Shown: positions 16,447 through 41,486 of the stretch, piece by piece
Layout of the letters: each line of letters starts with the position of its first letter
How positions within the stretch are numbered: the first letter of the stretch is position 1
From: an uncultured Lachnospiraceae bacterium
GTDB taxonomy: Bacteria > Bacillota > Clostridia > Lachnospirales > Lachnospiraceae
NCBI GenBank assembly: GCA_947593655.1
Contig: CANQDS010000004.1
Coordinates: forward strand, 1-55,932
Direction of reading: 5' to 3'
Length of the DNA: 55,932 nucleotides
Notes under the pieces: model-generated
Database searches by the model: none
What the model was told of the DNA's origin: nothing
Seen by the model: only the letters and a program-made list of their open reading frames with translations
Position numbers and translations under genes: made by a program

Positions 16447-16505
16447 ATGTAAAAACCGCCGCGGATGCCAGTTTCTGTTACCGGCATCTGCAGCGGTTTT
16501 ATCTG
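16447..16505 (-). terminator. Terminator of the 25-kb tad/kinase/surface-protein locus (copy B)
   Basis: On the minus strand the outer stem AAAACCGC / GCGGTTTT encloses GCAGATGCC / GGCATCCGC, with one mismatch and a loop of about 14 bases, and is followed by TTTTTAC. It lies 10 bp after the stop codon of the giant gene. Confidence 0.88.
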
Positions 16506-16515
16506 CATTTACATA

Positions 16516-19500
16516 CTATTTTGCCTTTAATTTGAACTTTCTGCGTCTGCGCCATACGATTCCGCCGCCGGCCGCCGCAGCCACGCCGCAGCCGCCTCCA
16601 ACTGTTCCATAGAACAGCGGTTTATTGGCGTAAAAGATGACAAGGGAGCTTGCAGATACCGTAATTCCGGTATATTCGCTCGTATACTGATTGGTATTCC
16701 CGTCAGCATCCACAGATGCATCGCTGCTGACCACGCGGACGCCCAGATTCATCCCTTCCGGAATGGTAAAACGGACCTGCCCGTCGTTTTTGCTTAAATA
16801 ATCATCCAGTTCTTCTCCGGAGAGATCAACCCGCACGCTGATATCCTCCCCGCTTTCATCTTTCAGCGGCTCGCCTTTCGAATCCGTAACCGTCACGCGG
16901 ACGCTCTGCAGTTTTCCTCCGTCATCCGTTGGTATCGCCGTTACCGACTGTTCTTCCACCTGATATCGTCCGTTATTTTCAATTCCGCTTAAAATAACGC
17001 TTGGCGGCGTTTTATCCACATTAAAGGACAATGCGGCATCTTTCAGGTCACTGTAAGCGGTACGGTATTCATCCTGACCGGTCTTTGTCTGATCCGCCGA
17101 CTCGACTACGATATTATTTTCACCTTCGTTCTCAAAAAGCGCTTTGCTGATCGTATAGCTGTACTGATACCACGCACCGTTTCCGCCCGAAGTTTCCACG
17201 GAATAATCGCTTCCTTCCGCTAAGGCTTCCCCATTCAGCGTTACCTCATAGGAGTTCAGCGGATCCACGTCTACTTCAAAAATCTGCAGATCTTCCTCTA
17301 CTGACTGCACATAATAATGGTTTACCACGCTCTGCGTATATCCGTTATCTTCAATCCAGAAGACGGAACCGTCGCGGTTTACGGAAAAAGCAATGATCTC
17401 ATCTGCTTCCGTCCGTGCTTCCTGAACCGCATTTCCGCTTTCATCCAAAAAATCCGCCGTATCGAACGTATTTCCGGCAAGATCCGATGCCGTACATGTC
17501 AGAGAATACATTCCGTCATTTGCCAGATTAACTACACTGTAGCGTCTGCCGTTGGTAATATCCGAAACATTCCACTCCACTTCCTTCGGAACATAGCTGT
17601 TTCCCTCTTTAACGATATAGGTCAGGTTCGGCTCGAATACATCCAGATTTCCCTGCGCATCCGTACAATCGATCGTCAATCCGATATTTCCGGATTCATT
17701 GTGTGCCGAATGATTGTTAATTCCCCGCACAACCACGGACGGTGCGGTCTGATCCACATAAAACGTCTGATTTTCCAGATCTACAGCAGGATTTCCGGCT
17801 TTATCCGTATACGCCATGCTCCAGGTATAAAGAGCGTCTGCGTCAAAGGAAAGCGTCGCCTGATGGACATCGCCCGCGGAGCTCCATGCGCTGAACGCCG
17901 GAGCGGAAGCTGCATTTCCGTTATCCTCTGCATTCATGGTCAGAGTCACCCGTCCCGCTTCAAAGTTATGCTCATGCACCGTCACCGTCGCCGTCCGGCT
18001 CTCTTTATAATAATTTTCATTCAGAGAATCGTTATTGTCATAGGCAACTTCAATCGTCGGAACGGTCTGATCAACCGTAAACGCTTCCGGCGAAAGGGAA
18101 TTTCCATAATCGGTTCCTCCGGATGCATTTCCAGCGCTGTCCGTGCAGGAAACGGCAAACGTATAATCCCCGTCCGCCGCATAGGTGATCGTTGCAGTAT
18201 GCAGCATGTCATCTCCGTTTCCGCTGCCGGGTATCGAGGTCCAGCCGGAAATCGAAGGAATCACACCATCCGTATTTGTAATGGTTACCTGTACATGATC
18301 CGGATTAAAATTCCGTTCCCGGATCCGGATTGTCGCAGTCCGCGAATCCTTAAAATATACGCTGTCATTAAAAGAAGCATCGCCGTCATTATTATCATAA
18401 GAAACCGATATTGACGGAGCCGTCGTATCCATCTGGATCCTGTGGGTAGAAGTATTTGTATTTCCCGCATTATCTGTAACGCTTACCTGTACTTCCACCT
18501 GATTGCTGTTGTTGCTTCTGTCGATCACGATCGTATTTTCCATATTCTGGACCAGATCGTCTACGTCCGGGATATCCTGCCGGAATGTGTATAGATTTCC
18601 TCCTGCCGTCTGTGTTCCCATATTGTATACGGCGTAATCAATGCTTTTAATTCCGGAAAAAACATCGCTTCTGGACGGATCCTGCACCGTTACTGTGGCA
18701 GTTACATTGTCCCTGTATACATTTTCCGCTGCCAGCGGCGTCGTGATCGTAATAACCGGAGCCGCATTATCTGCAATCACTCCGTCCGTTCCGATGTACG
18801 ATACGTTTCCGGCATAGTCCTCCAGCCTTACATAGATCTGAAATTTATCATTCGGAGCCGTGCGGAACAATTCCAGTTTCGACAGATCCCCGCCTTCCAG
18901 ATCAACGTTTTCCCATTCCGAATCCGCAATTGCAAAAATTTCTTCTCCCGATAGAACTTCCATTCCGGAAGTCTTATAGTATTTCACGCTCGCAACCGGA
19001 CTGATGGCATCCGCAGCGCTTCCGGATACAAAAATGTCGGTATTGGAAAAGAGCCCGACAAGCAGCCCATCCGCCAGAGATCCCCCGTGAGGGAAGATCG
19101 CAGTCTGTTCCGCAGAAACACTTCCGGTCGGTGCACTGTAATCTACGGTAAACTGATTCGGTGCTACGTCCCCGCTGCAGTCCGCCTTACCGCTTCCGCG
19201 TCCGGATTCATCCGTATACACATAATCGATGACATAGTTGGCCTCCTGATCAAAGGTAAGTACTGCCGCATGTTTCGTCACATCCGCCGGATCTGTCACC
19301 CAGTCACTCATATCGACCAGTTCCGATATATCTCCCGTATCCACCGGATTTCCGGCACTGTCTACTGCCGTAATCGTATCCAGAACGGCCGCCCGTGCCT
19401 TTTCCTCGTTGAAATTCCGCTCGGTGATCCGGATTTCCGCCGTCCGCGGATTACGGAAATACCCGCGGTTCTGTTCCGTTACATAATTGGCGTCATTATT

Positions 19501-22500
19501 GTCAAAATCCACCTGAATTTCCGGATCAATCGTATCGACAATAAAATCTTCCGGTGCTTTGGAATCTCCGTAATCTTCCTCTTTAACCTCTGTTTTCCAT
19601 CCGGCCAGATCCGTACAGGAAATGCCGTGTATGACATAATGCCCGTCCTCGGAAAAATCCAAAGTCGCCTGATATCTGGTATTGTCCCCGTTTCCCTGCG
19701 GTGCTTCCGTCATCTTCCATTCAGAGAAAACCGGACACTCACCGTAGTCATTCGTAAGATCCGCCATAACTTTCTCCGGATCAAAATTCCGCTCCTGCAC
19801 TTCGACAACTGCTGTCCGCCCTGTCTGGAAATAAGTATCTGTTCCAACGGCCGCCGTAACGTCATTATTCTGATAACGGATCTGGAAAGCCGGAGCCGTC
19901 GTATCGATCCGCAGCGTCCTGCTCTGCTCCGTCTGGTTTCCGGAATTATCTTCCGCAGTTACTTTCAGCGTGACTTCATTACTGTTATTTTTCTCGGAAG
20001 AGATCACAACCGTATCATCCATCCGAAATTTCAGATCTTCATAAACCGGATCCTCCGGACAGCGGTACAATTCTTCTTCCTGTGTCTTTACCCCTTGATT
20101 GTACACTTCATAACGGATCATGCGGATTCCGGCCGCCGCGCTCTCTTCCCCTTTTTCATCCAGAATATTCAGTTCCAGTGAAACGTCTCCGTCATAGATA
20201 AAACCGTCCTCTTTTGGCGCGGTGATCGCGATTTCCGGTTCCTTATCATCTGTAATCACGCCGTCCGTAGCAAGATAAGCAGTGTTTCCCGCATTATCCA
20301 CGATCTTTGCATAAACGGTAGACTGCCGGTTGATGCCGAGCAGGAAACTGTTTTCTGCCTCTGCCGGAAACGGCGACCATTCTACTTCGGCAAGTTCTTC
20401 CACGCTTTTGCGCACCGTACCGTCGTCAATATAATAGGAAAAACTTTCAATCGGGCTCGTATCATCTTTGCAGCTTCCGGTTACCGAGACTTCCTTTTGG
20501 GAGAAACCGAAACGCAGTTCCATCTGGCTGTCGATCCACGACCGGAATACTTCTCCGATTTCACCGTCCTCCTGTCTTGTAACGGTAAGCGTTCCGGAAG
20601 GTTTGTCCGTATCAAGCGTAAAGCGGCCTGCTGCGACAGAATCCATATAATCAACATCCGGATTACTGTTGCGTGCCTCATCTGTATAAACGATGTCGGA
20701 TACCTGATATCCCGCATTTCCCCGGAATTCCACCGTGATTTTGTGTGTTGCGCCGTCTTCCGTACTTCCTGCTTCATCGGTCCAGCTTCCAATCGTAACA
20801 TAACCGTTTCCGCTTAATGGATTTCCTTCCGCATCCAGACGGCTGATCGCTGCAAGAAGCGCCTGTGCAGCCTTTTCCCCATTAAAATTCCGTTCAGTGA
20901 TCGTAATGTCTGCCGTTCGTTTGGCAATCGGAAAATATCCGCAGCCGCCGCTGATCTTATAAGGATCATTTTCCCGATAAGAAACCTGAATTTCCGGTTT
21001 GGTAATGTCAATTTTTAATTTCTTTTCCACGGTTTTGCTGTTTCCGGCGCAGTCTTCCGCCGTTACCGCTATCACTACTTCGTTACTGTTATTTTCCGAC
21101 GAAAGCACCGTGACTGCCTTTTCCATAGAAAACTGCAGATCGGCATATTCCGGCTCTTCCTTTTCCAGCGCATAAAGCACATCCGCACCGGATCCGACTG
21201 CGCTGTCCTCCTTTGGAAATGTCCGGGTTCCGCTGCTTTTTACTTCATAACGAACGGACTTTAAGCCGGAGGCTACGTCTTTTCCATTCTTCGGATCATC
21301 TACCTTAATGTCTGCACTGACATCGCCGTTGTAAATATAATCATCCGCCTGCGGAAGCGTGATCGTGATTTCCGGAAGCACATTGTCCGTGATCATGCCG
21401 TTTGTGCTGAGATAAGAAATATTTCCGGCGTAATCAACGATCTTTGCATAAACCACGGCCTGATGATTTTTCGGTATGGCAAACGGCCGGTACTGCCCCG
21501 CTTCGTCCGTTGTAAAAGCAATCCATTCGCCCGGATCGAGCGCTTTCAGTTCCTGTTCGCTTTTTCTGACCGTTCCCGCATCCAGATAATAATAGAACGC
21601 TTTCACCGGACTGATCTCATCCGCACAGATTCCGTTGACTGTTACTTCTTCCTTGGAAAAACCGAAGATCAGTGCGATCCTGCTGTTGATCAGTTCCCCG
21701 AATACACTTCCGGTTCCGTCATCTTCTTTTCTCTTCACGGTAAGGCTTCCCGACGGGCTTTTCCGGTCTGCCGTAAATTTTTCCGGTGCACGGGAATCCC
21801 CGTAGGAAGGAGTTCCCGACATGTGCCCAGCCTCATCCGTATAGGCATACGACGCTTCATAATTGCCGTCCGCCTGAAAAGCAAGGGTTGCCGTATGTTT
21901 AAATTCCTCTTCGCCGCTTCCTTCCGGAACCGTCCATTCCGAAACGGCAATCATTTCTGAAAGTTCCTGCGCGGAAAGCGGCTTTCCGTCTTTATCATAC
22001 GCCTTGATTCCGTTCTGCAGCGCCTCCGTAGCTTTCTGTGCATTGAAATTCCGTTCGGTGATCGTAATTTCTGCTTTCCGCAATTGGTCAAAATATCCGC
22101 GTCCGTCCTTTTCTCCCGTCATTTCATTGTTATCATAAACAACTTCCATGACCGGAGCCGTCAAATCCAGAATAAAATTCTGCTCAACCGAACACTCCAT
22201 ACCGGACGATTTCTGTCCTGCCGGATCCGTGCATTCGATTCCATTCAAATGATAACTTCCGTCCACTGCAAATGACAGAGAAAGCGTATGGACTTCATCG
22301 GAAACCTTCTGCCAGTTCGAAGCGGAAAATGACGGAATTTCTCCGTATTCTTTTGTAAGATCAAACGTTATCCGTGCCGGATCAAAATTCTGTTCCTTTA
22401 CCGTTACCAGAACGGAAAAAGCTTCGGAAATATAGGTCTTCCCATCCGCGCCCGTCGTCTGTGCCGGTTTTTTCGTATTGTAGCCTACGGTGATCTCCGG

Positions 22501-25236
22501 CTGCGTCTTATCAACCACAAAGTCTTCCGGTGCTTTGGAATCTCCATAATCTACACCGGATGATACATTGCCTGCCTGATCCGTACAGGAAACAGAAGAC
22601 ATCGTATAAGCCCCGTCCTCCTCAAAAACCAGCGTTGCCTTATGCACGGTATCATCGCCGTTTCCGTCCGGATTTGGCGTTCCTTCCTGCGTCCAGCTGT
22701 CTGCTGCAAGCGTTGGAACATTTCCATAGGCATTCTCAATATCAGCCGTTATTTTTGCCGGATCAAAATTTCGTTCCGTAACTTTGATCGTCGCCGTTCT
22801 TTTTTCTTTAAAATATTTTTCGTTCTCGACATTGTTATTGTCATAACTGATCTCGATCTTCGGCGGAGTCGTATCGATTGAAAGCGATTTTTCTTCTGAT
22901 GATTCATTACCGGCATTATCTATGGCAATAACTTTGATCTTTACGTTGTTGCTGTTGTTTTTTTCGGAGGAAATGACTGCTTTTAACTCCTGAACCATCT
23001 GGATGTTTTTCTTTTCCAGTTTTTCTTCCGAAGATTCTGGTAGGAATTCTACCTTATATAAACAATCTTTCCCCGCCGCTTCCTCCTCCACAGACGGAAA
23101 TGTTTTCACACCATTATTGTAAACTTCATAGCGAACCTCACGGATTCCGGAAGCAGCTCCTTTATCATTTGAGTCGTCCACTTTAACATCTGCCGTTACA
23201 TCCCCGCTATAAATCGTTTCGTCTGCCGACGGAAGGGTAATAGTAACTTCCGGTTTTTTATTATCCGTGATCATCCCTTCCGTATTTAAATAGGAAGTAT
23301 GCCCTGCATAATCAATGATTCTGGCGTATACGGTAGTCTGACTGTTGACGGCAATCGTAATGTCTTCATATCCGCCATCGCCCTTTTTCGTAAATTCCGT
23401 CCAGCAATCTGCCCCATCCGTTCCATCCAAAATGGATGCTAACTGTATCTCCGACAGGCCCTGGTCTTCCGAATTCAGATAATAGGAAAAACTTTTCACC
23501 GGGTTACCCCCGTCTGTACAGGTTCCGCTTACGGTGACTTCCGCTTTCGAAAAACCGAATAACAATTTTGCCGTCCGGTCTACCCACTCACCGAACTTTT
23601 GGCCGATTGATCCGTCTTCGTTTGCTTCGTCTTCCTTCCTCGTTACGGTCAGTTCTCCGGTCGGCGGCTGACTGTCAATGACAAATTTCTGATAATCCTG
23701 CGAAGAGCCATAATCAACGCCGCTATTCGTATTCCCGGCCTTATCCGTATAGGAAATAGGAACATCAGTATCCAATTCATACCTTGCATCAGCCTTAAAT
23801 GTCACTTCCGCCGTATGTACGCCATTCTCCGAATCAGTCCAATCACCTACGCTGACGTACTTCTCTACGCTGACGCACTCCTCTTTCCCGTTTTTGGTAA
23901 CGGTAACGGTAATCGCATCAAGGATTGCCTGGTTTGCCTCATCAAGTTCAAAATTCTTCTCGGTAATGCTGACAGTTGCTTTCCGCTCTTTTGCAAAATA
24001 AGCGTAGCCGCCCTCCTCATCCTTCTTTTCATTTTCCGAGTCGTCAAAATTAACGGACACAACCGGAGCCTTTGTATCCAGTAAAAAGCAGATCGTTTGC
24101 TCTGAATCATTCCCCTTCAAATCGGTCGCTTTGGCATGGAATGTCAGCATTCCCGTATAATCCGGATAATCAGATGAGGCGATCACAACGGTCTTTGGAA
24201 ATTCATTATTTTTATTCGTTTCTTCTACTGATTCTGTTTGAGGAGCCGATGCTCCTGCATCGTCTTCTTTCGTCACCCAGTATTCGATCTGCTTCAGACC
24301 GGAATCGTTATCCTGTGCAGTAATCGTAACAGAAATATCATGATTGATCCATGTTTCCGTTTCAGCCTGCTGCGTCTCTGATTTCAATTCCAGCTTGTCG
24401 ATCGTACTGTCTTCCGCTTTCATGCTTATCTGCTCAATTTCCTGACTCGCAGAAACATTGACACTACTCCCCGTTACCGTGTCATATCCTTCCTTGGTTA
24501 CGGTCAGCGTGTACGTTACACCGTCATTTACCACCACATTATCGATAGAAAAAGATCCATCAGTATTTGTCGTTGTCGAATAAGTATAATACTGCTCATA
24601 CTCATTTTCTCCTGTCAACTCCACTTTCGCACCTGCAATCCCTGTGGCTTCCTCGCCTTCAGTCACAACCTTTCCGGTAACTGGTTTCTTTTCTTCCTTC
24701 GCCATTGGAATGGTAATCTCTGTGCTATCGCCATCCGGGATTAACAATGGTTTATCCACAACTGGAAGATAACCTAAAGTTTCTTTCAGATCAGAATCAG
24801 GTTTTAATACTACAGAGTAAACATAGTTTTTTGTCGTATCCAGCGTTACCTTCCACTTCCCGCCAGATACCGAATTACCAGTATCACCGTTGTCGCCACC
24901 ACCAGTATCGCTATTCGTACCTGTAGCACCGTCGCTCGCCTCCTCATCTGTTACCCGTGTTGCTTCGATCTTATTCTCAGTTTTCTCTTCAAATCCATTT
25001 CTTGTTTCCCAGAAAATTACTTTCATTTCCGGATAATCAGTTTCTGTAAAGATGTTGCTTTCATTTCCCTCTTCCTTAATCTGAACGGTAAATTCTTTTT
25101 CCGTTCCGGAACCGGATTCTCCCGGCGCGGATTCTGCAAACGCCGGATACGGCAGATACGCGAACGCGATAAGCGCCGCCAGAAACAATGCCGTTACCCT
25201 GCTTGCAAAACTCCGCTTTCCTGTGCTGGTTTCCAT
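16516..25236 (-). CDS. Giant secreted Ig-like repeat surface protein (2906 aa)
   Basis: It has a signal peptide (about 1-34, ending YPAFA). Next come a carboxypeptidase-regulatory/CNA-B-like domain (about 185-275) and then tandem Ig-like modules. Two module types alternate. Type A carries an (I/V)xExNF motif and a YTDxAGN/CTDxAGN end, with nine copies near residues 429, 824, 949, 1062, 1449, 1817, 1940, 2309 and 2424. Type B begins with an SGxLTVxRxED-like strand and contains FGFSKxEVTVxG, with four copies near 525, 1164, 1552 and 2039. The C-terminus has a Gly/Ala-rich transmembrane segment and a basic tail (WRRRRKFKLKAK) with no LPXTG motif. A GGAGGAG site precedes the ATG. It is probably an adhesin or stalk, the last gene of the tad/kinase locus. 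Confidence 0.9.
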   Translation of the reverse strand: METSTGKRSFASRVTALFLAALIAFAYLPYPAFAESAPGESGSGTEKEFTVQIKEEGNESNIFTETDYPEMKVIFWETRNGFEEKTENKIEATRVTDEEASDGATGTNSDTGGGDNGDTGNSVSGGKWKVTLDTTKNYVYSVVLKPDSDLKETLGYLPVVDKPLLIPDGDSTEITIPMAKEEKKPVTGKVVTEGEEATGIAGAKVELTGENEYEQYYTYSTTTNTDGSFSIDNVVVNDGVTYTLTVTKEGYDTVTGSSVNVSASQEIEQISMKAEDSTIDKLELKSETQQAETETWINHDISVTITAQDNDSGLKQIEYWVTKEDDAGASAPQTESVEETNKNNEFPKTVVIASSDYPDYTGMLTFHAKATDLKGNDSEQTICFLLDTKAPVVSVNFDDSENEKKDEEGGYAYFAKERKATVSITEKNFELDEANQAILDAITVTVTKNGKEECVSVEKYVSVGDWTDSENGVHTAEVTFKADARYELDTDVPISYTDKAGNTNSGVDYGSSQDYQKFVIDSQPPTGELTVTRKEDEANEDGSIGQKFGEWVDRTAKLLFGFSKAEVTVSGTCTDGGNPVKSFSYYLNSEDQGLSEIQLASILDGTDGADCWTEFTKKGDGGYEDITIAVNSQTTVYARIIDYAGHTSYLNTEGMITDNKKPEVTITLPSADETIYSGDVTADVKVDDSNDKGAASGIREVRYEVYNNGVKTFPSVEEEAAGKDCLYKVEFLPESSEEKLEKKNIQMVQELKAVISSEKNNSNNVKIKVIAIDNAGNESSEEKSLSIDTTPPKIEISYDNNNVENEKYFKEKRTATIKVTERNFDPAKITADIENAYGNVPTLAADSWTQEGTPNPDGNGDDTVHKATLVFEEDGAYTMSSVSCTDQAGNVSSGVDYGDSKAPEDFVVDKTQPEITVGYNTKKPAQTTGADGKTYISEAFSVLVTVKEQNFDPARITFDLTKEYGEIPSFSASNWQKVSDEVHTLSLSFAVDGSYHLNGIECTDPAGQKSSGMECSVEQNFILDLTAPVMEVVYDNNEMTGEKDGRGYFDQLRKAEITITERNFNAQKATEALQNGIKAYDKDGKPLSAQELSEMIAVSEWTVPEGSGEEEFKHTATLAFQADGNYEASYAYTDEAGHMSGTPSYGDSRAPEKFTADRKSPSGSLTVKRKEDDGTGSVFGELINSRIALIFGFSKEEVTVNGICADEISPVKAFYYYLDAGTVRKSEQELKALDPGEWIAFTTDEAGQYRPFAIPKNHQAVVYAKIVDYAGNISYLSTNGMITDNVLPEITITLPQADDYIYNGDVSADIKVDDPKNGKDVASGLKSVRYEVKSSGTRTFPKEDSAVGSGADVLYALEKEEPEYADLQFSMEKAVTVLSSENNSNEVVIAVTAEDCAGNSKTVEKKLKIDITKPEIQVSYRENDPYKISGGCGYFPIAKRTADITITERNFNGEKAAQALLAAISRLDAEGNPLSGNGYVTIGSWTDEAGSTEDGATHKITVEFRGNAGYQVSDIVYTDEARNSNPDVDYMDSVAAGRFTLDTDKPSGTLTVTRQEDGEIGEVFRSWIDSQMELRFGFSQKEVSVTGSCKDDTSPIESFSYYIDDGTVRKSVEELAEVEWSPFPAEAENSFLLGINRQSTVYAKIVDNAGNTAYLATDGVITDDKEPEIAITAPKEDGFIYDGDVSLELNILDEKGEESAAAGIRMIRYEVYNQGVKTQEEELYRCPEDPVYEDLKFRMDDTVVISSEKNNSNEVTLKVTAEDNSGNQTEQSRTLRIDTTAPAFQIRYQNNDVTAAVGTDTYFQTGRTAVVEVQERNFDPEKVMADLTNDYGECPVFSEWKMTEAPQGNGDNTRYQATLDFSEDGHYVIHGISCTDLAGWKTEVKEEDYGDSKAPEDFIVDTIDPEIQVDFDNNDANYVTEQNRGYFRNPRTAEIRITERNFNEEKARAAVLDTITAVDSAGNPVDTGDISELVDMSDWVTDPADVTKHAAVLTFDQEANYVIDYVYTDESGRGSGKADCSGDVAPNQFTVDYSAPTGSVSAEQTAIFPHGGSLADGLLVGLFSNTDIFVSGSAADAISPVASVKYYKTSGMEVLSGEEIFAIADSEWENVDLEGGDLSKLELFRTAPNDKFQIYVRLEDYAGNVSYIGTDGVIADNAAPVITITTPLAAENVYRDNVTATVTVQDPSRSDVFSGIKSIDYAVYNMGTQTAGGNLYTFRQDIPDVDDLVQNMENTIVIDRSNNSNQVEVQVSVTDNAGNTNTSTHRIQMDTTAPSISVSYDNNDGDASFNDSVYFKDSRTATIRIRERNFNPDHVQVTITNTDGVIPSISGWTSIPGSGNGDDMLHTATITYAADGDYTFAVSCTDSAGNASGGTDYGNSLSPEAFTVDQTVPTIEVAYDNNDSLNENYYKESRTATVTVHEHNFEAGRVTLTMNAEDNGNAASAPAFSAWSSAGDVHQATLSFDADALYTWSMAYTDKAGNPAVDLENQTFYVDQTAPSVVVRGINNHSAHNESGNIGLTIDCTDAQGNLDVFEPNLTYIVKEGNSYVPKEVEWNVSDITNGRRYSVVNLANDGMYSLTCTASDLAGNTFDTADFLDESGNAVQEARTEADEIIAFSVNRDGSVFWIEDNGYTQSVVNHYYVQSVEEDLQIFEVDVDPLNSYEVTLNGEALAEGSDYSVETSGGNGAWYQYSYTISKALFENEGENNIVVESADQTKTGQDEYRTAYSDLKDAALSFNVDKTPPSVILSGIENNGRYQVEEQSVTAIPTDDGGKLQSVRVTVTDSKGEPLKDESGEDISVRVDLSGEELDDYLSKNDGQVRFTIPEGMNLGVRVVSSDASVDADGNTNQYTSEYTGITVSASSLVIFYANKPLFYGTVGGGCGVAAAAGGGIVWRRRRKFKLKAK

Positions 25237-25270
25237 ATGCTGCTCCTCCTTTTCTCTCTCCGTATTGTAC

Positions 25271-27432: not shown

Positions 27433-27443
27433 GAAATTTCCTC

Positions 27444-29921: not shown

Positions 29922-29932
29922 ATGTGCCTCCT

Positions 29933-31234: not shown

Positions 31235-31255
31235 TCTGTTCTCCTTATCTTCCCG

Positions 31256-31894: not shown

Positions 31895-31925
31895 GGCTTT
31901 GATTTCCTTTCTTCCGGCTTTTGCT

Positions 31926-33203: not shown

Positions 33204-33233
33204 AGTTCATTTCCTCTTTTGTGTATTCCGGTT

Positions 33234-36200
33234 CTAATATCCCCGCACCGTACGGATCTGATAAGTACACCAGTCACCGGTTTTGTTCGATTCATCCACA
33301 TAATCACTGAAGATCGGCAGAGAAATCATAATCGGATTTACACGAAGCGTGGCTTCTATCTGAAAATAAGTTTTCGCATTGGAAAGACTGTAATCACTCT
33401 TTCCGGTAACAAGACGCATATTCTGCTGGATCAGATCCGCCATGCGTTTGCACATATCCTCCGATTTCCCGCTCTGTATTCCAAGGCAGACAAACAGCGT
33501 CAGATAATCACTGTAAAAAATACCGCTGTCATTATTCGTAAAACTTGCAAGTTCCGTAAGTTTGTTTACTACTACAGAAAATCCGCCTTTTCCATCTTCT
33601 TCCTGAAGGCTGTACTGCCAATCGTCTGCTGTTTTATAGATTTCCACCGGAAATCCTGCTTCCAGACGGTTCAGATCCCGGACCGTTTCCAGCGCGGTCA
33701 GAAGTGCCAGAAGCACGATCTTAATTACCGGAACCGGAATAATTCCCGACGTTGCCGCAGACAGTGCAGTCGAAGCCGCATCAATTGCCTTCCCAGTCGT
33801 CGTATTGATACCCCAGAACCTCTGGAAGGCGGAAATATAATTCAATGCATAGCGGACTGCAAAAATATCCTCATAGGCCTTCTTTACGTTTTCTTTATTG
33901 GATTTGCCATAAAGAATATATTCCAATTCACAGCCATAAGCCGCATTCCCCGATGGAGAAATCATCTTATTCGTCAGGCTTTTATTATAAGCATCTTTGA
34001 AATCCGTACTCATCCAGGTAGATTCCGTATCTGCATTTCCGTTTCGTTCTGTATAAAGTCCTGCGTAATTGCTCTGATTTAAGTCCTTTATTTTATCAAC
34101 CGAACCGTCGTTTTCCTTATAATATTTCTTCAAAAGCTGATAACGGCCTTCGTTCTCATAGGTTGCATAGCTGAACATCTCCCTCATATAAATGCTTAAA
34201 TAAAGATTATCGCGGATGCTTGCAAAATTTCCGTCCGCCAGCCGGGTAACAAGATCTACAATTCCCCCGATGCTGTCTCCAAGAGAAAATGGTTCGCCTC
34301 CTGCGGAAACTGCCTGTTCGATCTCAGCCGCTGTTTTTCCGTAAACATTGACTGCTGCGCTGCTTTTTTCATAACGTCCGGTCAGTGCGTTTTCTTCTGC
34401 GTTATCCGCCTTGTCTTCCGCACCTTTTTTCTGGCTTTTTCCGCCTTTCACATCATCGTCAACGGCATCTTTAAATTTTTGATGCATATATTGATAGAGT
34501 TCGGGAACGCATACCCGCCCTGTCGCAGGATTTAATTCTGCCGAATAATTTTCTTCCGTATGCAGGGCAACAACAGGATTCTTCTCGGAAGCATCCGGAT
34601 AAAACAGCGTAGCAAACGTACTGTCCGCATAGCTGCTGATTCCCGAATTATCTGTAGGAATATCATTTGCAGAAACAGCAGAGCCCGCTTTATTCTTAAA
34701 GGTATTGTAATTTTTGATGTCGGTCAGTTTCTTTCCGTTCCATTTCATCGAATCAATCGCATCAATGATTTCCTGAAACTGCGTGCGGATATTTTCCAGA
34801 CGCGTCTGCATTTCCTGCACAGATTCGCTGTTAATTTCTGCGTACGCTTCTTCATCAATCTGCTGTATTTCCGCCCGGTCCTCCTCTCCCATCTGGGTAT
34901 CCGTATTATTCGCCGTATTTTTCCATGTATTGTATTTATTATGATATTCAGATGCCAGCGTACTTAATTTGGAAAGGGACGGAACACCCCATTTTCCATT
35001 GATTGCATGATTCAGAATATCCATATCGTCTTTCAGATCTTTTCTTATTCCCGATAATGTATCCGCAATCGCCGCCAGCTGCGCATCGATCGTATTGCCA
35101 TTCGATAACCGCAGCGTAGAAGAAGAAATATTATTGATATTATTGGCGGAAATTGTTTCCAGACGATTTACCAGTGTCAAATACGAGTCGCCTGTACCGG
35201 AAACGCCCGACGTTAAATATTTTCTCTGATAATCCTCTATGGTTGTTTTATATTCCGAATAATCCGCATCATATCCATCCGGTACGCCGTCTTCTTTTTC
35301 TGCTTCATTCATGGCGTTCATTTCCGCATAGATCTTCAGCATTTTCTCTCCGGCTTTTTTCAAGTCTTTTATATCGCTGCTTCCGGAAGACGGATTGATC
35401 GCCTGATTCAGCTTTACCCAATACTGGATATCATTCGTATCACTTCCATAGGAAATCGCCCCGCCGTCTGTTACAACATCATCTTTTGCCTTTTCAAAAT
35501 CTTCAATGGCCTCCTCGGCATCTTCCAGAATATCCGCCAGCTTACTGCTGCTGACGGAAGAATAATCATAATCGTCCTCATAGGCATCCAGTGAGATCAC
35601 CGGCCGGTAAAATACGCTGAGTCCCTGCGTATTGTAAAGATTGCTGATCATCAGGCGGTGGATTTCCTGATACATCTGACGGGCATTTTCCAAAGATTGG
35701 ATCTTTTCCTGAATCTGCTCGTTTGTGATTCCTTTTGAGGTATATTCATCATACAGATACCGATACGAATCATAAGCTTTTTCCAGAAGTTCCCCTTCTT
35801 TTTCAAAATAATCTTCTTTTGCATCGACAAGCGGTTTATTTTCGTCGCTTTCTTTTAAATCATTCAGTCCGTGGTCACTGGTAAGGCGCTCGATCAGTTC
35901 TTCTGTGACGGTGATCGGCGCGCGGTATTTCATAAATTCCACGACCTGACGTTTCAACATAGTGGAATTTGCCAGATTGGCATTCTCTACCGCTGAGATC
36001 TTAACATCCCCCTCCTGCTTGACCGGAAGCAGATCATAGATCGTATCATTGCCCAGAAGCTGCGACCACTGATCACTGACCAGAATAATTTCCTCGTCCG
36101 ACAACCCCTGTGAGGAAAGGGTTCGGAGAAAAAATTTCGATGATATCTGATAAAACTCGTCAATATTCTGGCAGGACGCCACCATGCCGTACCATTCGTT

Positions 36201-36377
36201 TAAATCCCTGTCATAATTTGTCATCAGCGTATTCAGTGCCAGATCGCTGGACGAATACGCCATAGATTTAGATAGCTTTACCCGTCCATAATCCACAAAG
36301 ATACTGGTGACAAGCATACACGGTACCAATATAATCACTAGGAATACGGAAACTGCGCCCCGTGTGTTATGCCTCAT
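33234..36377 (-). CDS. DUF5702 (TadG-like) exported protein, 1047 aa
   Basis: The start is the ATG 36375-36377, six bases after GGAGG. The N-terminus RGAVSVFLVIILVPCML is a prepilin-like anchor (Gly7, but Phe rather than Glu at +5). A long helical, coiled-coil-rich external region of about 1000 residues follows, many of them charged, with a hydrophobic stretch near 890-920 (GIIPVPVIKIVLLALLTAL) and a C-terminal beta part. It matches the DUF5702 type that accompanies Tad genes in Clostridia. It is probably an extracellular scaffold of the machine; no enzymatic motif was seen. Confidence 0.8.
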   Translation of the reverse strand: MRHNTRGAVSVFLVIILVPCMLVTSIFVDYGRVKLSKSMAYSSSDLALNTLMTNYDRDLNEWYGMVASCQNIDEFYQISSKFFLRTLSSQGLSDEEIILVSDQWSQLLGNDTIYDLLPVKQEGDVKISAVENANLANSTMLKRQVVEFMKYRAPITVTEELIERLTSDHGLNDLKESDENKPLVDAKEDYFEKEGELLEKAYDSYRYLYDEYTSKGITNEQIQEKIQSLENARQMYQEIHRLMISNLYNTQGLSVFYRPVISLDAYEDDYDYSSVSSSKLADILEDAEEAIEDFEKAKDDVVTDGGAISYGSDTNDIQYWVKLNQAINPSSGSSDIKDLKKAGEKMLKIYAEMNAMNEAEKEDGVPDGYDADYSEYKTTIEDYQRKYLTSGVSGTGDSYLTLVNRLETISANNINNISSSTLRLSNGNTIDAQLAAIADTLSGIRKDLKDDMDILNHAINGKWGVPSLSKLSTLASEYHNKYNTWKNTANNTDTQMGEEDRAEIQQIDEEAYAEINSESVQEMQTRLENIRTQFQEIIDAIDSMKWNGKKLTDIKNYNTFKNKAGSAVSANDIPTDNSGISSYADSTFATLFYPDASEKNPVVALHTEENYSAELNPATGRVCVPELYQYMHQKFKDAVDDDVKGGKSQKKGAEDKADNAEENALTGRYEKSSAAVNVYGKTAAEIEQAVSAGGEPFSLGDSIGGIVDLVTRLADGNFASIRDNLYLSIYMREMFSYATYENEGRYQLLKKYYKENDGSVDKIKDLNQSNYAGLYTERNGNADTESTWMSTDFKDAYNKSLTNKMISPSGNAAYGCELEYILYGKSNKENVKKAYEDIFAVRYALNYISAFQRFWGINTTTGKAIDAASTALSAATSGIIPVPVIKIVLLALLTALETVRDLNRLEAGFPVEIYKTADDWQYSLQEEDGKGGFSVVVNKLTELASFTNNDSGIFYSDYLTLFVCLGIQSGKSEDMCKRMADLIQQNMRLVTGKSDYSLSNAKTYFQIEATLRVNPIMISLPIFSDYVDESNKTGDWCTYQIRTVRGY

Positions 36378-36408
36378 ACTGCTTCCTCCTGCTGCTTTTT
36401 CATGCTCC

Positions 36409-37035
36409 TTAATTCCGGAACCATTCCTTTGCTTTTTCAACCACCTGCTGGATGCGCTCCATGGCTCCGGTCCGTTCCATATAATCCTCTACCATATCCA
36501 CATTCCGGATAAATTCCGGCGCATTTGTAACCGGCATGTCCGAATGTGCATTACAGGACATGGAAATTAATTCCGACGTTCCTAACAGCTGCACCGGAAT
36601 GACGACTTTATATGACACATCTACGGAAAAAGTCGAATAGATAAACGCATTATGGAATTCCGGTGTGCTGATAACTACCGACGTGGGTTTCATATTGGAA
36701 AACAATCCCGAATCCAGAGATCGGATCTCCTGATTCAGTTTTGTCTGAATGTCCGATTCAATTTCATCCATTCCTCCGACCATAAAACGGTACGGACGGA
36801 TCTTGTCTGTATTGTATGCCGGGATTTTTCCCTGCTGCATATCATAGAGGAACGGGTCGGCGCAGTATGCCGCCCCCTCAATGGTCAGCCGTTCGACAAT
36901 GGATTCGATCCGGCATTTCTGCAAGTATGCGTTTCCCGCATACATCATAAAAATAATGATCAGAAACATGGTTGGAAAAACGATGGATGCTTCCACAACA
37001 AGCATTCCGTCTTCTCTTTTCAGTTGTTTTGTCAT
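36409..37035 (-). CDS. TadE-like pseudopilin (208 aa)
   Basis: The mature-looking N-terminus is KREDGMLVVEASIVFPTMF: Gly10, then Glu15 at +5, and a transmembrane helix. The remaining 170 residues are extracytoplasmic and include two cysteines (KCRIES, AYCADP). I choose the ATG 37033-37035 (MTKQLKR) because the longer frame begins with TTG and its purine-rich stretch AAAAGGATGG then serves as the RBS. It follows the Flp-like pilin by 40 bp. Confidence 0.8.
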   Translation of the reverse strand: MTKQLKREDGMLVVEASIVFPTMFLIIIFMMYAGNAYLQKCRIESIVERLTIEGAAYCADPFLYDMQQGKIPAYNTDKIRPYRFMVGGMDEIESDIQTKLNQEIRSLDSGLFSNMKPTSVVISTPEFHNAFIYSTFSVDVSYKVVIPVQLLGTSELISMSCNAHSDMPVTNAPEFIRNVDMVEDYMERTGAMERIQQVVEKAKEWFRN

Positions 37036-37075
37036 GTCTGCATCCATCCTTTTCAATCAAACTCAAATAGAAAAA

Positions 37076-37294
37076 TTAGTGAAAATCAACTGACTTATTT
37101 ATGTCACCTGTATTCATACCGGTAAACAAATCCTTAATCAAATCTGCCAAACGATCTTTCAATGCAATAGCCAATACAACGGCTATCCCGATCAGTACCA
37201 CGATGGAAACCACATTAACGTCGCCCTCCTCATCGGTAAGCCATGCCCAGATGGTATTTTTTACCCTTAAATACGTCCTGTCAAACACATTCAT
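37076..37294 (-). CDS. Flp1-like type IVb pilin without Glu+5
   Basis: A 72-residue small pilin-like protein: a basic N-terminus, then EEG|DVNVVSIVVLIGIAVVL, a hydrophobic helix, and a short polar tail. The position directly after tadC and before the TadE gene fits the major subunit of a Tad pilus. The residue five after the presumed cleavage glycine (Gly24) is Val rather than the near-universal Glu. AAGGAG precedes the ATG. It is likely the main substrate of the prepilin peptidase in this locus, although the missing Glu leaves open a non-pilin membrane role. Confidence 0.78.
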   Translation of the reverse strand: MNVFDRTYLRVKNTIWAWLTDEEGDVNVVSIVVLIGIAVVLAIALKDRLADLIKDLFTGMNTGDINKSVDFH

Positions 37295-37351
37295 ATCATT
37301 TTTCTCCTTTCTTTTGTGTCCTTTTTAATTGTTCTTTTATAAAAACAATGG

Positions 37352-38221
37352 CTACACGTTCAAATTTGTAAAAATCGGAACGATTACCATTATTAATATC
37401 CCTACAAACATCATCATCAGCGGGATCATCAGCTTGCTTGCCGCCTTCTCGCCCTGCCGGCGGACATTCTGTTTCTTTAAGTTCCAGACTTCGCTGCTCT
37501 GTGCCCGAAGCATAACGGTCAGCTCGCTGTTCCCTTTTTCAATTCCCTGAATAATGGTAGATGCAAATTTCTTAATCTCCGGAAGAATGCAACGGTTCCC
37601 AAAACGGAAAATGGCTTCCGTTTCCGAAATGCCGTTATTCATTTCCTCAACCACTTTCTGCATTTCAAGATAAATGGTGTTTTCCCCGGTATACGCCACC
37701 TTTTCCCATGCTTCCTTCATGATCATCCCGGCATTGGTCAAAAGCGCAAGCTTGGATACGACATTGGAAAAATCACGCATCATTTCCTCTGAACGCGCCA
37801 GGATCTTCTGGCTGGTCGCCGTTCCATAGTAGTAATAAGCCGTTCCGGAAAACAGCAGAAATACAAACGTCATTGCCACAGTATCTGCAATTCCATACAG
37901 GGCAAACGCCAATACCGCAAGCGTAAGCGCCATCGTAATCTTTTGTGCATAAATCACGCGCAGATAATAGTCCGCATATTTTTCCCCGTAAAGCACACCG
38001 ATCTCTTTGCGCAGCTTCCGGTCGTTTTTCGATTTGTACTGGTAATGCAGCAGATTGACTGCCGCATATCCGACAAAATAGATTTCTTTCAACGGATATT
38101 CCTTTTCTTCCAGCACATCAAACAGCCCGGCATCCTTTTTCCCGATCAGAAACAAAAGGATCCAGATCACAAGCAGTACGGCTCCGATTGCAAACAGAAT
38201 ATAATCCAATAATGAAAACAT
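37352..38221 (-). CDS. tadC: Tad inner-membrane protein TadC
   Basis: A type II secretion system F-family platform protein of 289 residues. It has an N-terminal helix pair, the cytoplasmic T2SSF domain (about 120-245; MMRDFSNVVSKLALLTNAGM, then GISETEAIFRFGNRCILPEI) and C-terminal helices ending in NLNV. It pairs with TadB (12 bp upstream) to form the membrane base that couples the TadA ATPase to pilin movement. Confidence 0.92.
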   Translation of the reverse strand: MFSLLDYILFAIGAVLLVIWILLFLIGKKDAGLFDVLEEKEYPLKEIYFVGYAAVNLLHYQYKSKNDRKLRKEIGVLYGEKYADYYLRVIYAQKITMALTLAVLAFALYGIADTVAMTFVFLLFSGTAYYYYGTATSQKILARSEEMMRDFSNVVSKLALLTNAGMIMKEAWEKVAYTGENTIYLEMQKVVEEMNNGISETEAIFRFGNRCILPEIKKFASTIIQGIEKGNSELTVMLRAQSSEVWNLKKQNVRRQGEKAASKLMIPLMMMFVGILIMVIVPIFTNLNV

Positions 38222-38233
38222 CTTATTTCTCTC

Positions 38234-39097
38234 CTAAACCTTGATCTCCAGAATTTTTCTTCCGACAAAATAGGAAGCTGCAAACAAAACAATAGCAACC
38301 GTTGTCGAAGCAATTCCGGTCGGCGTTACAAAATTTTCTGCAAACTCCGGTCCCATCATTTTGATTACGCCAATCAATGCAACCGGCATAACGATCATGA
38401 TATTTTGTTCAGTCTTATTGGATGTTACAATGGTTTCGATTTCTTCATTGATTTCCATTTTATCGTTTAAGATCGTATAAGTCGTCCGGATTGTATCCTT
38501 AATATTTCCGCCTTTCCGGTAGCAGATCTGAAATACATTGGCAAAGCTGACAATGTCGTCGTTTCCGCTTCTTAGTCCGAAATCTTCCAGAATGTCTTCA
38601 ATATCAATGTTATTTGCCATACCGGAAAGAATGATTTCCAGTTCCCTGACAATATAGGCATCTTCTTCATACTGGATCTTTAAATCCTCATATGCGCTCC
38701 GGAAAGAATCCATGACGTTTTTTCCGGCACCGAGCGAGGTACTGAGCGCCTCTAACATATCCCGAAACTGCGTGTTCAGCTTAGATTTCTGTTTTTTAAT
38801 GATCTGCTCCGTCCGGATTGGAAGAAACAGCTTTCCGGCAATCAGACCGACAATCGTCGAAATCGTAATATTCAGGACGTAGGTAAGCGCCGTCGGCTGT
38901 CCGTATTCGTCCTTTCCGATCCCCCCGTAAAACAAATATCCGACCGCTGCTCCAACCGCAAATGCAAGCAGAAAATACAGGATTTTTTCCCACAGACTCA
39001 TATAATAAACCTTGTAATTATAAGTCTGCATATTGGTTGCGGACTGATAATACTGCGGTTCCAGTGCCGGTTTTTCCTTTTTCTTAAAAATTGCCAT
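38234..39097 (-). CDS. tadB: Tad inner-membrane protein TadB
   Basis: A type II secretion system F-family protein of 287 residues, the partner of TadC. It has two N-terminal transmembrane helices, a T2SSF domain with TQFRDMLEALSTSLGAGKNV and an EDFGLRSGNDDIVSFANVFQ stretch, and two C-terminal helices. The reading frame begins 10 bp after tadA and ends 12 bp before tadC, indicating one transcript. Confidence 0.92.
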   Translation of the reverse strand: MAIFKKKEKPALEPQYYQSATNMQTYNYKVYYMSLWEKILYFLLAFAVGAAVGYLFYGGIGKDEYGQPTALTYVLNITISTIVGLIAGKLFLPIRTEQIIKKQKSKLNTQFRDMLEALSTSLGAGKNVMDSFRSAYEDLKIQYEEDAYIVRELEIILSGMANNIDIEDILEDFGLRSGNDDIVSFANVFQICYRKGGNIKDTIRTTYTILNDKMEINEEIETIVTSNKTEQNIMIVMPVALIGVIKMMGPEFAENFVTPTGIASTTVAIVLFAASYFVGRKILEIKV

Positions 39098-39106
39098 TTT
39101 CCTCTC

Positions 39107-40345
39107 CTAGATCTCCGTCCATATTCCCGACAGTTTCAGTTTAAAATCATGTATGATCTTATTCTTCGTGCGCACCAGCTTCCCGGACACTTTTTCCAGT
39201 GTGCTGTTTTCATCCTCTTCAAAAACATACAGCGGATTCAGCAGAATCTGCCCGTTCTCATACCCTGCCACTTCCGTGATCTCCATAGTCTTTCTGCTCT
39301 TATCGCGCAGCCGGGACAAATGGATGATAATATCGATTGCCGAAGCAATCTGCTGCCGAATTGCTTCTAACGGCATTCCGGATGTTCCCTGCAGCACCAT
39401 TGTTTCCAGACGGCTCAGCATATCGTGGGGCGAATTTGCATGGCCGGTCGACAGGGAACCGTCATGTCCGGTATTCATCGCCTGAAGCATATCCAGCGCT
39501 TCTCCGCCGCGGACTTCTCCTACGACAATGCGCTCTGGACGCATTCTAAGCGATGACTTGATCAGATCGCGGATCGTAATTTCTCCTGCGCCGGAAGCAT
39601 TGGCATTACGCGTTTCCAGACTGACTAAGTTATCCAGTCCGGTAATCTGCAGTTCCGCCGAATCCTCTATCGTAATGATCCGCTCATCTTTCGGAATATA
39701 ATTGGAAAGCGCATTCAGAAAAGTCGTCTTTCCGGAACCGGTTCCTCCGCAGATAAAAATGTTGTATTTTGCCCTTACCAGAAGTTCAAGTTTATCTGCA
39801 ATATCCTGTGTCAGAGAACCGTACTCGATCAGCTTTTCGATCGTCATCGGATCTTTGGAGAATTTACGGATCGTAATAGTCGGCCCGCACAGAGCGATCG
39901 GCGGAAGCACTACGTTGACACGCGAACCGTTCGGAAGCCTCGTATCGCAGATTGGATTCGCCTGATTAACTTCCCTTCCTGCCATTCCGACGATCCTCTG
40001 AATAATGTCTTCCAGACGTTTCTGATCCTCAAACTGCTTATCCAGACGGGAAAGCCGCCCGTTTTTCTCAATAAAAATATTTTGCGGTCCGTTGATCATG
40101 ACTTCTGTAATGGTTTCATCGCTGATAATCGAATCCAAAAGGCCGAAGCCGCGGATAGAGCTGTAAACCTGCTGGACAATGGAAATCCTTTGTTCAATGG
40201 AGCAATACTGCCCGCTCAGTTTCTGCGCCGTGATTTCTTCCACGCGTTCTTCCAGTTCTTCATCGCTTAAAGAACTTAACGGAAGATTTTCAGCGACATA
40301 TGCCTTTATTTCCGCTACGATTGCCTGCTCTCTTTCAAACTGCAT
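39107..40345 (-). CDS. tadA: Tad pilus ATPase TadA/CpaF
   Basis: A 412-residue secretion ATPase of the CpaF branch. The N-terminal domain ends with ITEVMINGPQNIFIEKNGR, and the C-terminal ATPase core has Walker A GGTGSGKTT, the Asp box region (IITIEDSAELQI) and Walker B RPERIVVGEVRGGEALDMLQ. The His box HDGSLSTGHANSP is intact. It powers pilus assembly from the cytoplasmic side of the membrane. It follows tadZ by 13 bp. Confidence 0.97.
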   Translation of the reverse strand: MQFEREQAIVAEIKAYVAENLPLSSLSDEELEERVEEITAQKLSGQYCSIEQRISIVQQVYSSIRGFGLLDSIISDETITEVMINGPQNIFIEKNGRLSRLDKQFEDQKRLEDIIQRIVGMAGREVNQANPICDTRLPNGSRVNVVLPPIALCGPTITIRKFSKDPMTIEKLIEYGSLTQDIADKLELLVRAKYNIFICGGTGSGKTTFLNALSNYIPKDERIITIEDSAELQITGLDNLVSLETRNANASGAGEITIRDLIKSSLRMRPERIVVGEVRGGEALDMLQAMNTGHDGSLSTGHANSPHDMLSRLETMVLQGTSGMPLEAIRQQIASAIDIIIHLSRLRDKSRKTMEITEVAGYENGQILLNPLYVFEEDENSTLEKVSGKLVRTKNKIIHDFKLKLSGIWTEI

Positions 40346-40358
40346 ATCCGCCCCTCCG

Positions 40359-41420
40359 TCAGATCAGCTGGTTAAATAACTCCATGGAAGACAACTGCGC
40401 CATGATCTGTGCATCCGTCGCATGTTCATACCGTGGCGCCCCTCCGATCATCTTGATATCCAGCGCCTCCAAAACGCGCCCCGTCTTATTGCTGAATTTG
40501 TTATATACCAGAAACATGCGGTCGATCACGGAAACGCCGAGGCTCTCTTCCATCGTCTGAATCGCGCCATATGCACGGAAAATCTTCTGGTTCGACAGCA
40601 CCGATCCGTCCCCGACCATGACAATATGTTCCATTTTTTCAAAAAAGCGCATAAGATTGCGGTTCAATTCAAAATCCAGATCGATCACAATGTAATCGTA
40701 CTTTCCCGAAAGCGTCAGATTCTGCACCAGCGTTTCGATTTCTTCATATCCCACTTCCATCATGTCCAGTGCAACTTTCGGCTGGGAGAAGAAATAAACG
40801 CCGCTGGCATCCTGCTTGACGCAGCTTTCCAGTTTAATCATGAGGTTGGATTTCCGGCTTTTTAACGCATAGATGATATCACTCATATCAAACTGCCCGT
40901 CCCCGCGGAAAAATACATCCGAGGAACCGAATGTCTCCAGATTCAGGTAAAGCGCCTTTTTCCCCCGCTTTGCACAGGCCACGGCAAACGCCGCGGCAAC
41001 CGTGGAATTTCCAACTCCGCCGCCCGGCGAAGTAAACGCAATCAATGCACAGTTATCATCTGCAGATTTCAGGCCCGAAATATTCGTAGCCATTTCCGAA
41101 TAGATGCCTAAGATCTGCTTATAAATCAGATCCACCTTTTGAAATTTGCAGATGGCCTTCTGCCCCTTAACAGAATCAATCTCGTGATTTTCCACGAAAT
41201 AGGCGAATCCGCATCGCGGCGGAAGGCTATTTACTTCTATATCAAACTGTTCCGCTGCCACCAGAACATCGATCTTGCTCTGGCCAAGCTGCCGGAGCGC
41301 CGCATCTTTATCTGTAAACGAATAAACGATCAGCTTATCGGCATACTTTGAATTAAAAACGCTTGCGATCCGATCCAGATACCCATTGTCCTTATCTAAG
41401 ATAGCAACTCTGATTTTCAT
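40359..41420 (-). CDS. tadZ: TadZ/CpaE-like ParA-type protein
   Basis: A 353-residue protein starting at the ATG 41418-41420 (MKIRVAILDKDNG); farther upstream the frame is open but crosses the promoter. The first 115 residues are a receiver-like domain without the usual phosphorylation context. The rest is a MinD/ParA-type domain whose P-loop reads SPGGGVGNST (131-140): the signature lysine is replaced by Asn. Atypical Walker A motifs are known in TadZ proteins. TadZ places the Tad machinery at its site in the cell, often a pole. First gene of the locus. Confidence 0.9.
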   Translation of the reverse strand: MKIRVAILDKDNGYLDRIASVFNSKYADKLIVYSFTDKDAALRQLGQSKIDVLVAAEQFDIEVNSLPPRCGFAYFVENHEIDSVKGQKAICKFQKVDLIYKQILGIYSEMATNISGLKSADDNCALIAFTSPGGGVGNSTVAAAFAVACAKRGKKALYLNLETFGSSDVFFRGDGQFDMSDIIYALKSRKSNLMIKLESCVKQDASGVYFFSQPKVALDMMEVGYEEIETLVQNLTLSGKYDYIVIDLDFELNRNLMRFFEKMEHIVMVGDGSVLSNQKIFRAYGAIQTMEESLGVSVIDRMFLVYNKFSNKTGRVLEALDIKMIGGAPRYEHATDAQIMAQLSSMELFNQLI

Positions 41421-41457
41421 GACTTTCTCACCGCATATCCTTTCATCTGTCTGGTTT

Positions 41458-41486
41458 ATTTTACTCCTTTCTTTTCTCTTAGTCAA
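41458..41486 (-). promoter_or_regulatory. Promoter of the tad/kinase/surface-protein locus
   Basis: On the minus strand, TTGACT (41481-41486), a 17-bp purine-rich spacer and TAAAAT (41458-41463), about 38 bp before tadZ. ACT(A/T)AG elements recur at the -35 and upstream of it (41480-41517), with CTAAG and CTTAG arranged as an inverted repeat. This is a possible operator for the divergent XRE regulator. Confidence 0.8.

Follow-up and report, generated by a model that had tools for sequence, protein, structure and literature searches.

A phosphosignalling module described with type VII secretion lies beside the predicted Tad pilus genes of an uncultured Lachnospiraceae bacterium

Described relatives and the locus

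The five-gene signalling module treated here has its closest described counterpart in T7SSe, a subtype of the type VII secretion system (T7SS) whose components, as set out in 2024 by Garrett and Palmer, are TseJ (DUF6382-FHA), TseF, TseD, TseH and TseI (PMC11217815). TseH and TseI are the counterparts of TsdH, a single helix with a short unstructured cytoplasmic region, and of TsdI, a large protein with a signal peptide, a C-terminal helix and Ig-like domains; in T7SSg and T7SSh, Tad genes are adjacent (PMC11217815). We found homologues of the five genes behind Tad pilus genes in a 55,932-nucleotide stretch of DNA from an uncultured Lachnospiraceae bacterium (the window: contig CANQDS010000004.1 of assembly GCA_947593655.1, our contig C4, from a genome of 3.09 Mb in 186 contigs that is 87% complete).

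The closest working analogy is the threonine phosphorylation pathway of the type VI secretion system (T6SS; PpkA, PppA and Fha). There the phosphatase PppA belongs to the T6SS locus. Fha binds phosphorylated Thr14 in the cytoplasmic part of TssL and activates the machine (PMC3953482). The window likewise encodes a kinase and an FHA reader, but its machine and its presumed membrane substrate are different, and the repeated TxxL motif lies in a tail without a family match. A pseudokinase fold serves as an assembly hub with FHA partners in EssB/YukC, TraF and MviN (Rv3910)-FhaA (PMC13037476, PMC12599244).

The fifteen genes lie on the minus strand, the first beginning at 41420 (the likely tadZ start) and the last ending at 16516, and are separated by at most 57 bp or overlap. 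They are listed in gene order with their profile matches (E-values); hydrophobic and membrane segments, here and below, are those predicted from hydropathy.

40359-41624, minus: TadZ/CpaE-like protein, atypical receiver plus MinD/ParA-like ATPase (PF21194 TadZ-like_ARD, 7.6e-47); likely start at 41420, an in-frame ATG inside the open reading frame (ORF)
39107-40345, minus: TadA/CpaF ATPase, 412 aa (PF00437, 9.8e-61)
38234-39097, minus: TadB platform protein (PF00482, 2e-5, 25.0 bits, just below the 25.2 cut-off)
37352-38221, minus: TadC platform protein (PF00482, 1.3e-9)
37076-37294, minus: Flp1-type pilin, 72 aa (PF16982, 2.6e-10, above the cut-off)
36409-37056, minus: TadE-like minor pilin (PF07811, 9.5e-4, below the cut-off; assigned from the TadE profile and gene order in relatives)
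33234-36440, minus: DUF5702 protein, 1068 aa (PF18960, 2.4e-29), hydrophobic segments near the N-terminus and at 899-917
31926-33203, minus: 425-aa pilin-like protein, N-terminal hydrophobic segment, conserved in relatives, no Pfam or NCBIfam match
31256-31975, minus: prepilin peptidase (A24; PF01478, 9.9e-11)
29933-31234, minus: membrane-anchored WG-repeat protein (PF14903, 3.5e-47), one hydrophobic segment, N-terminal
28233-29969, minus: DUF6382-linker-FHA protein (the hub), TseJ-like, likely start 29921 (PF19909, 3.6e-20; PF00498, 7.2e-14)
27444-28217, minus: PP2C phosphatase, TseF-like (PF13672, 3.7e-10; NF033484, 6.3e-49, below its cut-off)
25756-27432, minus: Ser/Thr kinase, TseD-like, one membrane segment, TPR-like ectodomain (PF00069, 9.9e-49)
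25271-25759, minus: u162, a 162-aa single-pass protein with a TxxL tail, TseH-like (hydrophobic segment 13-31; alignment A2), no Pfam or NCBIfam match
16516-25236, minus: giant 2906-aa Ig-like surface protein, TseI-like (CarboxypepD_reg, 9.3e-9; Big_3_2, 1.1e-5)

With a TadA ATPase, a TadB/TadC pair, TadZ, and a Flp-type pilin together with its prepilin peptidase and a TadE-like protein, the first part of the locus resembles described Tad (type IVb) pilus systems and is, as predicted from its genes, a monoderm Tad machine. Outer-membrane parts are not expected in monoderm Tad systems. It differs from the described systems in the added DUF5702, WG-repeat and 425-aa proteins and in the kinase, phosphatase, FHA and giant-protein module. 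Profile matches thus bear out the original prediction of a Tad-type locus adjoining a kinase/PP2C/FHA set, made from the sequence without database searches; the Flp1-type pilin was missing from its gene naming. The run of fifteen minus-strand genes with mostly short gaps or overlaps was also described correctly.

The last five genes correspond to the J-F-D-H-I set: as in T7SSe (and T7SSd/j), there are a DUF6382-FHA protein, a PPM phosphatase, a membrane kinase, a single-pass protein whose cytoplasmic region is short and unstructured, and a giant Ig-like protein. They are homologous to, and in the same order as, the five genes beside EssC in Ornithinibacillus halotolerans (L142), T7SSe itself being compared by its published description. 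In O. halotolerans the five follow an EssC-type ATPase gene and three WXG100 genes, and the genome yields only four T2SSE matches. Their frames (551, 336, 346 and 331 aa) all differ in length from the TadA of the window. In the window, by contrast, they follow Tad genes, and its genome, at 87% completeness, gave no EssC-type ATPase (three FtsK_SpoIIIE matches, the longest frame 941 aa) and no WXG100 match. A five-gene set of this kind with Tad is not reported in the available text of PMC11217815. The statement that no described mechanism couples these parts is not supported, since the kinase half matches components of T7SSe and its parts list is thus known from another machine (PMC11217815).

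Contexts of the module

A first sample of 80 named loci was found with the hub alignment and ranked by similarity to the window's hub, a choice that overstates the link to Tad. u162 was recognised in 47 of them and not in the other 33. The order hub-PP2C-kinase-u162 holds in 45/47, and in the two exceptions (L088 and L110) an antisense ORF call appears to cover the place of the phosphatase. Of the 41 loci with room for a giant ORF (700 aa or longer), 38 have one no more than 1 kb downstream of u162. Upstream of the module, the 47 loci show tad genes (30), EssC (1) or neither (4), the remaining 12 being too short. In all 30 Tad-linked loci the hub gene comes after every recognised tad gene and before that of the PP2C or kinase, and loci of this kind carry many different organism names; one of them, L096, is from the cultured Lachnospira strain ATCC 27753. 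That the two halves are also neighbours in related genomes, on which the original prediction depended, is seen in 30 of 35 context-readable u162-bearing loci of this sample, biased as it is to the window's hub.

To avoid the bias of a hub search, a second sample of 60 loci was anchored on the kinase ectodomain alone, with a view of at most about 13 kb. From 89 ectodomain places, 60 were fetched, 7 had already been sampled and 22 were left out (G028:C5 and the 21 weakest, which may be other kinases); no kinase ORF was called in L188, L196 and L205. Of 397 sampled genomes of the family, 83 match the ectodomain; in a phylum-wide sample of 398 only 2 do, and both counts include the window's genome. 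On a quick tree of 110 kinases, which carries warnings on long branches and odd composition, the Tad label takes 21 changes, 16 or more of them on well supported branches, against a shuffled mean of 34.1, and the five EssC rows are scattered as five separate changes. Within the view of each locus, the module appears to stay with Tad in some lineages and to have acquired or shed this neighbour more than once. By gene content and order, the five-gene module is exchangeable between Tad, T7SS and contexts with neither in view.

Nine genomes of the family, the window's and eight others, were tested for T7SS genes. G082, G088 and G099 have an EssC-sized FtsK_SpoIIIE frame (1531-1639 aa) as well as WXG100, and G000, G008, G030, G047, G051 and G073 have neither. 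Tad genes stand at the module in five of these six, and in the sixth, G047, only a TadZ-like gene was found in 20 kb. The case of G030 is a weak one for the absence of EssC, as not even a strong FtsK match was found there, and its u162 and giant were not recognised. Among ten genomes behind named loci, an EssC-sized frame is present in five (G120-G124) and absent from the other five; G126 is the same genome as G008, with the same hub, and is not a separate case. Since the module occurs in genomes in which no EssC or WXG100 was found, it does not seem to need a T7SS.

Composite loci were also observed. In L091, L093, L118 and L127, genes for DUF6382-FHA proteins and for an EssC-like ATPase come after the tad genes, and all but L118 also encode a TadZ-like protein, so that Tad and T7SS genes adjoin. 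L028, L030 and L033 are T7SS-like: their EssC-sized ATPase has TadZ-like and DUF6382 proteins as neighbours, which are cytoplasmic parts of Tad type.

The hub, its threonine motif and other features

DUF6382 is present in 115/120 sampled genomes of the family. The hubs recorded for Catenibacillus scindens and [Lactobacillus] rogosae, both Lachnospiraceae, recur unchanged in genomes of this sample, which identifies the family as Lachnospiraceae. The model of the domain (pLDDT 94.7) has TraF, an EssB homologue, as its top Foldseek match (TraF-N, E 1.8e-5; Z up to 13.5); EssB/YukC entries are absent among the 50 structure matches listed. In an alignment of 50 rows (A3: 49 of the 52 listed hub domains plus the window's; L086, L113 and L117 left out), D25 and K139 are the only Asp and Lys conserved above 90%, and no HRD or DFG motif is seen. 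We therefore predict that DUF6382 has a pseudokinase fold, that is, a protein-kinase fold without catalytic motifs. EssB/YukC, TraF and MviN-FhaA use a pseudokinase fold together with FHA partners; in the window the predicted pseudokinase and the FHA domain are fused in one protein. No segment of the hub exceeds the hydropathy cut, so that the transmembrane segment with extracytoplasmic domain of EssB and TraF has no predicted counterpart in it. We found no report of a pseudokinase fold for DUF6382, and none in the available text of PMC11217815.

The FHA domain of the window's hub spans about residues 480-578 of the long ORF. Its phosphate-site residues are largely conserved over 39 rows (A4: 38 of 43 full hubs plus the window's; L086, L113, L117, L109 and L118 left out), with S504 in 35/39, R505 in 36/39, and H507 and N526 in 39/39. 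Their conservation qualifies it as a predicted phosphothreonine-binding domain. In GarA and OdhI, the FHA site can be occupied by a threonine that is not part of the FHA domain. DgcB behaves in this way too (PMC6733907). The window's hub differs from these in having two TxVL motifs in tandem directly ahead of the FHA domain, in a form common to a second protein, u162. The four motifs are:

28593-28607, minus: first ETTVL motif before the FHA domain (GETTVLG), its first Thr invariant in 39/39 aligned hubs in an otherwise poorly conserved linker
28557-28571, minus: second ETTVL motif before the FHA domain (GETTVLS)
25388-25402, minus: ETTLL motif in the u162 tail (EETTLLS)
25358-25372, minus: ETTVL motif in the u162 tail (EETTVLS)

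The search pattern, [x]T-x-[VIL]-L, was narrower at first, was widened after reading L006-L065, where 28 of 55 hub linkers have the motif against 1.77 expected (eight more linkers were not scorable), and was then applied unchanged to L066-L145. This second set is not fully independent, as the hubs of L096, L100 and L114 are those of L058, L055 and L051 and other close relatives exist. In it, 47 u162 tails hold 158 motifs against 4.86 in shuffled sequence (maximum 12), with at least one in 45/47, and 76 hub linkers hold 105 against 1.70 (maximum 8), with at least one in 58/76. The 76 come from 86 hub-labelled ORFs, of which 5 fell below the score filter and 5 more were not scorable. Seven other protein families from the same loci served as a control and gave 30 motifs in 352 proteins, against 49.06 expected. 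The motif is kept in u162 tails where a hub is present at the locus (39 against 2.25 in 22 tails).

The residue at the head of the motif is selective. Pooling all sets, 95 distinct u162 tails contain 325 X-x-[VIL]-L sites, in which X is Thr in 265 (31.3 expected) and Ser in 5 (25.3 expected). FHA domains recognise phosphothreonine specifically (PMC3953482). A motif that favours Thr so strongly over Ser and has Leu at +3 fits the expectation for an FHA ligand and strongly suggests phosphothreonine signalling, as had been proposed; the gating of a machine by it, the other part of that proposal, we infer only. We found no report of the TxxL motif, and none in the available text of PMC11217815. 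The FHA proteins with the strongest DUF6382 matches (L006-L025) have TxxL in 14 of 19 scored, mostly 5-8 residues before the FHA start as set here, and the switch may predate the kinase module. The last ~17 residues of u162 (25274-25324) are also alike across contexts, with a pattern of about F-x-I-E-x-x-I-x-x-I-H-T-x-E-x-I, a possible extra docking motif.

HRD and DFG motifs are retained across 45 aligned kinases, and the kinase Lys is Lys or a gap. The ectodomain model (pLDDT 93.9) is helical and predicted to be TPR-like; homologue searches gave no confident match for it, and its alignment (A5) holds 41 of the 45, the window's included (L086, L110, L115 and L144 left out). The protein does not group with the PASTA kinases (PknB/IreK/Stk1), as NF033483 scores 212.9 bits against a required 450 and covers residues 4-265 only, and the ectodomain is helical.

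The giant has nine repeated xNF motifs and a repeat-unit profile common to relatives, an N-terminal hydrophobic segment, a basic C-terminus and a C-terminal hydrophobic stretch that stays below the hydropathy cut and is clearer in the L138 relative. Fifteen loci (L068, L069, L071, L074, L075, L077, L080, L083, L099, L104, L105, L107, L121, L122 and L135) encode one more membrane protein, similar among them and 149-196 aa long, in the interval from u162 to the giant. It has several hydrophobic stretches and often a motif like HCxLNGxNY, and is not in the window.

Another tad locus, with a different DUF6382 protein, lies on contig C16 of the window's genome, and the window's tad locus is the second, divergent type in that genome. 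The C16 locus (L046) also adjoins a divergent Ser/Thr kinase gene, and a neighbouring gene there is presumably flagellin-like, judged by its sequence.

Two transcription signals had been proposed for the gene run:

16451-16500, minus: intrinsic terminator, 20-pair hairpin whose stem takes in part of a U5 run (-34.1 kcal/mol, z -4.71)
41458-41486, minus: putative sigma-70 promoter 5' of tadZ, 10/12 match, not above chance

The strong terminator was confirmed, none of 200 shuffles being as good; the last four of its pairs are A-U, formed by the U5 run, and a simple terminator scan did not list it. Terminator-like sites in the two scanned stretches are at chance level (19 against 19.6 and 11 against 9.5 in shuffled sequence), so no internal terminator stands out. 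The promoter sequence is present, about 37 bp 5' of where TadZ probably starts, but such matches are equally common in shuffled sequence (14 sites in the region against 17.1), and the claim of one promoter there is not upheld. A divergent HTH_3 (XRE-type) regulator gene (41679-42026, plus; PF01381, 5.5e-12) is a candidate operon regulator. On the minus strand, 3' of the terminator, are genes for a YARHG-domain protein and a zinc-ribbon protein (15477-16061 and 14204-15466).

Readings of the locus and their meaning

We think it probable that the locus encodes a Tad machine carrying an exchangeable phosphosignalling module, in which the kinase phosphorylates threonine motifs, the FHA hub docks and the attached machine is gated. 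The TPR-like ectodomain of the kinase, and perhaps the giant, would sense the state of the envelope or of a contact. The kinase would then phosphorylate Thr in the T-x-[VIL]-L motifs that u162 and the hub linker carry, and the PP2C would reverse this. Phospho-u162 at the membrane and the hub's own linker motif would compete for the FHA domain (a cis/trans swap), and the hub would gather there, its pseudokinase half docking on the attached machine, here TadZ/TadA-TadB-TadC, and so licensing pilus assembly. The parts are well supported: the tad genes, the module, its likeness to T7SSe, its three contexts and the Thr-specific motif can be read from the sequence, and the DUF6382 fold is predicted; the gating step is the conjectural one.

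Several observations weigh against this proposal. The residue after the Gly in FHA domains is normally Arg, and at that position (488) the hub has Lys in 32/39 and Arg in 5/39. In the second locus set, 18 of the 76 scored hub linkers are without the motif as written. The motif persists in u162 tails at loci without a hub (34 against 1.27 in 19 tails, 13 of which have it), where any reader would have to be the product of a gene outside the locus. The +3 rule for FHA ligands is itself contested (PMC4037201). A 99% complete genome of the same genus (G695) has no kinase ectodomain match. Finally, 5 of the 60 kinase-anchored loci have at least two core tad genes, 5 have EssC and 50 show neither in view; with tad genes at so few, the link to Tad is optional.

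Those 50 loci also speak for the main rival, in which the kinase half forms a cassette of its own, with a giant adhesin, that senses envelope stress or contact and does not act on Tad. Its place behind tad would then reflect no more than that both are sets of surface genes, perhaps under a common promoter. At least 8 kb upstream is shown by 38 of the 50 loci, many consist just of PP2C-kinase-u162-giant without a hub, and the Tad label changes repeatedly on well supported branches of the kinase tree. Yet Tad context is clustered on that tree relative to shuffled labels, the hub always stands between the tad genes and the PP2C or kinase in the 30 Tad-linked loci, and DUF6382 hubs are often beside Tad or T7SS genes, though some are apart from both; we hold an independent cassette to be rather unlikely.

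It is improbable that the module is a relic of T7SSe that has lost its secretion genes and lies next to tad fortuitously. Such a relic would have the same five components, and would fit a genome in which no EssC or WXG100 was found, but all five genes are full-length open frames, the kinase motifs are kept and TxxL is conserved. The recurrence of the Tad-linked arrangement under many organism names and the scatter of the five EssC-linked kinases on the tree also argue against it. The giant had been proposed as cargo or stalk of the Tad machine, and a role as pilus cargo, tip or stalk would agree with its Ig-like domains and its adjacent, co-oriented gene. However, giants with the same repeat unit follow kinase and u162 where no tad gene is in view: the unit was found in giants of 36/41 Tad-linked loci, 1/1 EssC-linked locus and 39/48 others, the last being loci with neither Tad nor EssC in view, some of them short. 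The giant therefore goes with the kinase module and not with the pilus and, having its own N-terminal hydrophobic signal and basic C-terminus, is very improbable as a pilus part.

Returning to the exchangeable module, we tentatively suggest a wider version, for which the case is a little short of balanced, namely a machine-independent relay in which kinase and PP2C would set the state of the TxVL tail, the soluble pseudokinase-FHA protein would read it and dock on whichever motor has been recruited (Tad or EssC), and the giant would be the shared outside part.

We know of no account of the on/off control, in monoderm bacteria, of Tad pili or of the newer T7SS subtypes. A likely fold can now be assigned to DUF6382, a domain that nearly all genomes of the family sample encode. 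Components so far classed as parts of T7SS are not specific to it, the Tad machine of this bacterium carries a signalling module previously filed under T7SS, and one on/off module may serve several cell-surface machines. If the relay is real, T7SSd/e would be T7SS motors carrying it rather than self-contained secretion subtypes, and the same circuit would switch the Tad pili of monoderms.

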